Source of the DNA: Pseudomonadota bacterium
GTDB taxonomy: Bacteria > Pseudomonadota > Gammaproteobacteria > Burkholderiales > JAKAFK01
Assembly: GCA_021788645.1 (NCBI GenBank)
Contig: JAJYKK010000003.1
Location: 31,039 to 95,038 of the forward strand
Length of the DNA stretch: 64,000 nt
Reading direction: 5' to 3'
The notes below the pieces were generated by a model. The model saw only the letters and a list, made by a program, of their open reading frames with translations, was not told where the DNA came from and did not search any database. Of this stretch, positions 63,579 to 63,847 are shown in pieces (position 1 is the first letter of the stretch; each line of letters begins with the position of its first letter). The translations under genes and the position numbers were made by a program.

Positions 63579-63731
63579 GGGGGCGAACGTGATGTTGGGA
63601 CAACCGCCATTATACGCCTCTCGGCGTTCGCGCCCGCAAGCCCGACCGCCGTTTTGCGCGCGACGGCGCCCCCCGCGCGCGGCCCGCGCGTTTCTTCTGG
63701 AAGTCTCCCGGGCGTGTGCTATGTTTAAGGG

Positions 63732-63847
63732 CAGACGGTCTTGGATCGTCTCCCGCTTCTCCTCCCTGAGCGGGTGCCTTAATCCTCAATTAAGGCGTTT
63801 TCCGCCCCCGGTTTTACTCCCCTTTAGCCGGGGGCTTTTTCTCTTTT
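63732..63847 (+). ncRNA. Candidate small RNA: four consecutive hairpins, CUCC-rich loops, intrinsic terminator
   Basis: Stems 63733-63751, 63752-63774, 63776-63796, 63804-63835 followed by TTTTTCTCTTTT; extended -10 TGCTATGTT at 63717-63725. Confidence 0.6.
63804..63847 (+). terminator. Rho-independent terminator
   Basis: GCCCCCGG...CCGGGGGC followed by TTTTTCTCTTTT. Confidence 0.85.

Follow-up and report, generated by a model that had tools for sequence, protein, structure and literature searches.

An RF02837 RNA beside hemB

The window, that is, the whole stretch of 64,000 nucleotides that was analysed, carries on its minus strand an open reading frame of 336 amino acids (62568..63578) which we take to be hemB (delta-aminolevulinic acid dehydratase), both from reading the protein and from the name of the Rfam family described here. 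Adjoining it divergently and without overlap, the position that characterizes RF02837 ("anti-hemB"), is an RNA of about 110 nt on the plus strand (63733..63842, with a predicted 5' end). An Rfam covariance search of the window matched positions 63749-63842 to model positions 1-81 of RF02837 with 69.6 bits against a cut-off of 49.5 (E = 3e-14 for the 64 kb searched). This was the sole Rfam hit above cut-off across the entire window, in which sX13 and suhB gave weak sub-threshold matches only. A covariance model of our own, R2, which was built without any ErsA sequence, returned 63728-63842 with 101 bits and no other strong match in the window. Since the RF02837 match lies above the cut-off, the RNA is a member of a known family, and its membership, fold and conservation, all of them computed, make the element a genuine sRNA of RF02837 that is presumably transcribed in the host organism. 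The contig ends 158 nt past the RNA, and no engB gene was found within the 3.3 kb examined in a congener.

The original prediction had proposed a candidate sRNA with four hairpins, exposed C/U-rich loops and no visible coding potential, and the four hairpins are all present in the sequence between 63733 and 63842. Hairpin 1 (AGACGGTC-TTG-GATCGTCT, 63733..63751) lies outside the Rfam model, hairpin 2 (63752..63774) has the loop CUCCUCCC / UCUCCUCCC, hairpin 3 (GCCTTAAT-CCTCA-ATTAAGGC) spans 63776..63796, and hairpin 4 is an intrinsic terminator (stem-loop 63804..63835, U-tract to 63842) that holds a second C-rich loop, ACUCCCCUUU (ACUCCCC). The minimum free energy of the 110-nt RNA is -49.0 kcal/mol (z = -5.9), and none of 200 shuffles was equally stable.

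We examined the fold further in a MAFFT alignment of 42 homologs that was not fitted to a model and in which all four hairpins were counted. In this alignment 92.6% of the cells were paired and 22 of 30 pairs had changes on both sides; cells with changes on both sides numbered 106, compared to 26 expected from shuffles, and no shuffle out of 500 was as high. Hairpin 1 showed compensatory changes in five of its six consensus pairs (97.6% of cells paired) and hairpin 3 in six of seven, while hairpin 2 was paired in 100% of cells with its CUCCCU invariant across the 42 homologs, and the UCCCC of the terminator loop was nearly invariant. A second count over 74 beta- and gammaproteobacterial copies gave 28 of 30 pairs, in an alignment that was fitted to the model and hence leans towards it. 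Each of the four hairpins is thus backed by covariation, even the 5' one, which the Rfam model does not contain. In a congener (G001), the promoter and the sRNA are nearly identical to those of the window from about -60 to the terminator, and the flanking DNA has diverged on both sides.

Together, the family match, the fold and the covariation bear out the predicted sRNA, which is intergenic, with its exposed C/U-rich loops. A protein-coding role was rejected, as the open reading frames across the region are only mechanical readings and conservation tracks base pairs, in agreement with the claimed lack of coding potential. The family recovered is a known one, yet it has the same fold as had been claimed, so it is not the known family with a different fold that had been named as the adverse outcome. 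The earlier reading had overlooked the two most informative features, described below, the sigmaE-type promoter of the anti-hemB family and the hemB/polA-engB locus.

A sigmaE-type promoter in the family and its altered form in the window

Upstream of most homologs lies GGAACTT-N15/17-TCTNA, which is the sigmaE (RpoE) consensus known from E. coli. Using this external consensus, we scored 11 positions in the 100-nt upstream regions of the homologs, with a threshold of at least 9. In a set made up mostly of one genome per family, 42 of 52 sites reached at least 9/11, against rates of 4.1% in dinucleotide shuffles and 0.7% elsewhere in these loci, and in all but one of these 42 sites the -10 was placed 20-29 nt before the Rfam start. 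Among loci from named betaproteobacteria, 59 of 80 reached 9, some of them being hybrids of the Paraburkholderia/Pandoraea type with a TATATCATA -10 about 36 nt upstream. The C of GGAAC was kept in 86 of 90 anchored sites and the C of TC in 82 of 90. Exact copies of the motif number four in the host's 3-Mb genome, one of them at an sRNA paralog and another in front of a gene that we take, from reading its protein, to be rpoH. Because a motif this short would be expected about four times by chance, the evidence lies in the positions of the copies and not in their count; rpoH is a classical sigmaE target.

The distribution of the sigma factor was also compared with that of the RNA. Of 60 relatives, 52 had RpoE (TIGR02939) above cut-off, and the sRNA was absent from all five relatives that clearly lack RpoE (Fisher p = 0.0008, or p = 0.004 when the host genome is itself placed among the RpoE-negative ones; as the genomes are related, these values are only indicative). 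Overall, these sequence patterns make it likely that RpoE/sigmaE, the sigma factor of envelope stress, drives the gene in most of the anti-hemB lineage. The promoter of ncS04, the B. cenocepacia ortholog, is not sigmaE-like. As a separate observation, the Burkholderia group (loci of Burkholderia, L117 among them, Paraburkholderia and Pandoraea) has a different conserved -10 region upstream of anti-hemB, GGTATATCATA/GGTATATGATA.

The copy in the window differs at this site. Where homologs have GGAACTT..TCTNA, it has a degenerate sigmaE-type promoter on the plus strand (63699..63726) composed of GGAAGTC (63699-63705), a 16-nt spacer and TGTTT (63722-63726), which scores 7/11, below the threshold, and from which both consensus C positions (GGAAC and TC) are missing. 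The degenerate -10 is overlapped by an extended -10, TGCTATGTT (63717..63725, plus strand), that is conserved in the congener. This extended -10 had been predicted about 115 nt upstream of the RNA; the element is present, but the 115 nt correspond to the distance to the terminator, and the RNA would be expected to start about 8 nt downstream. In the congener (L038) the -35 and the -10 are identical to those of the window copy, and the altered promoter seems to be maintained because it is nearly unchanged amid diverged flanks. From these sequences, the hemB-linked copy of the host genus appears to have lost the sigmaE consensus and to use the extended -10 promoter instead. RpoE above cut-off was not found in the host's own assembly, which is 93% complete, and the congener has one.

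The host genome holds three anti-hemB copies. Two of them form a tandem pair on contig C12 (L004 5859-6147, minus strand), with sigmaE-type promoters scoring 11/11 and 9/11, and the same pair is present in the congener G001. From reading the neighbouring proteins, the pair sits between hsp20-lon-like genes and a TonB-like gene.

Homologs at polA and engB in other orders

Of the 274 genomes sampled from the class, 91 were hit at full length, with 32-73 bits, by a covariance model made from betaproteobacterial copies only (R1); nearly all of these 91 belong to other orders. The neighbouring polA, engB and hemB genes were assigned by tblastn with query proteins that we named from reading their sequences. 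In named betaproteobacteria, hemB lies upstream and divergent in 72 of 80 loci and engB downstream in 71 of 80, while in other orders polA and/or engB adjoin the RNA in 33 of 40 loci examined and hemB in none of the 40; hemB thus occupies the place of polA in the betaproteobacterial loci. A site of at least 9/11 was present at 30 of these 40 loci, compared to 1.6% in the control.

ErsA of P. aeruginosa is controlled by sigma22 and encoded between polA and engB (PMC8575079). At 30 loci of its family (Pseudomon-1, RF01719), polA was found in 26 and engB in 20, and the same promoter motif reached 9/11 in 23 of the 30 versus 0.2% in the control. Over the main loci of this family, ErsA was missed by R1 alone; R2 recovered the ErsA site in 30 of 30 ErsA loci (E 5e-6 to 5e-3), with a moderate match that is largely confined to the 3' half. 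In one Pseudomonadaceae genome no ErsA was found in the engB neighbourhood, and the family search located it elsewhere in the genome. One further locus (L256 1650-2407, minus strand) has polA and engB flanking four tandem sRNA copies, which gave scores against RF02837, RF02232 (sX13; 48.3 bits, cut-off 50), RF01719 (37.1 bits) and RF02344 (ar14; 38.0 bits), and these copies are possibly a bridge between the families.

These patterns of sequence and gene order suggest that anti-hemB is one branch of a widespread and ancient group of envelope-stress-controlled sRNAs that includes ErsA and probably sX13, the latter kinship being based on sub-threshold scores and on the published gene position. 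Apart from this, tandem anti-hemB copies above the Rfam cut-off were seen at two loci away from polA/engB (L251 and L261), with GAAACTT..TCTTA promoters and, by reading, near an smpB-like gene and a tmRNA gene.

Discussion

We consider it probable, with fair confidence in the account as a whole, that the window encodes a trans-acting RF02837 sRNA that represses through C-rich loops, belongs to a sigmaE-controlled polA/hemB-engB group and has undergone a promoter switch here. Transcription would run from the promoter directly upstream, begin near 63733 with the first hairpin and stop at the RNA's own terminator at 63842. The two C-rich loops, that of hairpin 2 and ACUCCCC, would be exposed and pair in trans with G-rich Shine-Dalgarno or enhancer sequences, and the paired mRNAs would be less translated, probably with Hfq. 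Anti-hemB, located at hemB-engB, would then form the branch of the Betaproteobacteria within a polA-engB group that is under sigmaE control and comprises ErsA and probably sX13, and the host genus would have placed its hemB-linked copy on an extended -10 while two tandem paralogs kept sigmaE-type promoters.

Target pairing and repression, and probably Hfq use, are predictions, a block of translation at G-rich ribosome-binding sites being most likely by analogy with sX13 and with the CU-rich sRNAs of Burkholderia and Bordetella. sX13 of Xanthomonadaceae is encoded beside polA and represses, through C-rich apical loops, mRNAs that carry G-rich motifs near the start (PMC3771888), and for the CU-rich bdhR1/ncS27 (Burkholderia) and S17 (Bordetella) ribosome-binding sites fall within the predicted target sites (PMC5688073, PMC11722255). 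Unlike the action proposed here, that of sX13 proceeds without Hfq. The ortholog ncS04, in turn, is 105 nt long by RACE, gives a Northern signal and reportedly binds Hfq, and it was not induced under the qPCR conditions tabulated (PMC5688073). In two congeners, GGGAGGAG...ATG sites numbered 11 and 19, a modest excess over the reversed pattern, which had 7 and 5; among the predicted proteins at these sites, no target common to both congeners was seen.

Compared with known systems, the window RNA shares with anti-hemB / Burkholderia RNA 7 (RF02837) its sequence, the CUCCUCCC hairpin, the third hairpin, the terminator and the position divergent from hemB. It differs from the Burkholderia RNAs in its second C-rich terminator loop, ACUCCCC, their loop being shorter and without UCCCC, and from the Rfam model in its supported 5' hairpin. 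ErsA has the polA-engB locus, the orientation, a GAACTT..TCAGA-type promoter and the C-rich terminator loop in common with the group, but it has another 5'-half sequence, no CUCCUCCC hairpin and no RF02837 match; RF01719 was matched neither by the window (E up to 1) nor by locus L002 (E up to 0.5). The window RNA is not a member of the sX13 family, scoring 19.8 bits against RF02232 (cut-off 50). The comparison with sX13 in the original prediction was nevertheless apt, given that related loci come near the sX13 threshold and sX13 adjoins polA, and no kinship to the alphaproteobacterial sRNAs that it also mentioned was established.

Whether these RNAs share descent can be weighed on the same evidence. 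It is possible, though we find it doubtful, that the polA/hemB-engB interval is a hot spot that gained Spot 42, ErsA, sX13 and anti-hemB independently, anti-hemB being a family of its own whose loops and promoters are convergent. Spot 42 (spf, enterics) fits this reading, since it lies at the same place with another sequence and regulation; it adjoins polA and has no similarity to sX13 (PMC3771888), and it has the polA locus alone in common with the window RNA, with no match in sequence or structure. The differing 5' half of ErsA and the lack of any above-threshold cross-match between RF01719 and RF02837 point the same way. In contrast, the betaproteobacterial model alone finds full-length homologs across the class, most of those examined at polA/engB, the tandem copies of L256 score against RF02837, RF02232 and RF01719 together, R2 reaches ErsA at all 30 loci, and there is agreement in promoter class, in strand and in the orientation of the neighbours. 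On balance we lean towards a single ancient family, comprising anti-hemB, ErsA, sX13 and many unannotated RNAs, which would be mostly sigmaE-driven and located at polA/hemB-engB in Beta- and Gammaproteobacteria, would link envelope stress to translational repression through its C-rich loops, and in some lineages (the host genus and Burkholderia) would have its hemB-linked copy on another promoter.

With respect to the window copy itself, decay is an improbable explanation: a paralog whose sigmaE promoter was lost as the tandem copies took over, leaving the hemB-linked gene silent or vanishing, would be consistent with the missing consensus C positions and with the existence of paralogs that have intact promoters, but the structure of the window copy is intact and, between diverged flanks, the congener shows almost no change from the altered promoter to the end of the terminator. 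The family name suggests yet another role, in cis on hemB through antisense pairing or transcriptional interference, and hemB does adjoin the sRNA divergently in most betaproteobacteria. We judged this very unlikely, as transcription of the sRNA leads away from hemB, with no overlap in the window, homologs of other orders lie beside polA/engB without hemB, and the tandem copies in the host's own genome are near other genes.

The object itself is not new, because its ortholog ncS04 has already been published, and taken by itself the window RNA adds a further member to an Rfam family already catalogued. What is new here is the link to a sigmaE promoter, the cross-order homologs at polA/engB, the link to ErsA and the lost sigmaE signature of the window copy; in the searchable literature, subscription literature being outside this scope, no description of a link between anti-hemB and sigmaE or ErsA was found. 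For the orphan family RF02837, this points to sigmaE as the likely regulator, to a likely way of acting and to relatives that have been studied. If the proposal is true, Beta- and Gammaproteobacteria would possess an sRNA under sigmaE control whose role compares with that of RybB and MicA in enterics, testable in several laboratory strains. The sX13 study left open whether the polA loci of other bacteria encode structurally related sRNAs, and the present evidence bears on that question (PMC3771888).

Two further observations concern annotation. The Betaproteobacteria toxic sRNA family (RF02278; S17/bdhR1) has exposed CU-rich stretches like the window RNA but a different locus, and membership in it was rejected, since the window is not among the RF02278 matches and separate RF02278 copies exist in the genome, one above cut-off and one just below (L035 and L036; contigs C90 and C12). 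An exact-core search also recovered metagenome contigs titled Klebsiella pneumoniae (L086) and Bordetella parapertussis (L175); the title of the former looks doubtful because its context is a betaproteobacterial hemB/engB locus.
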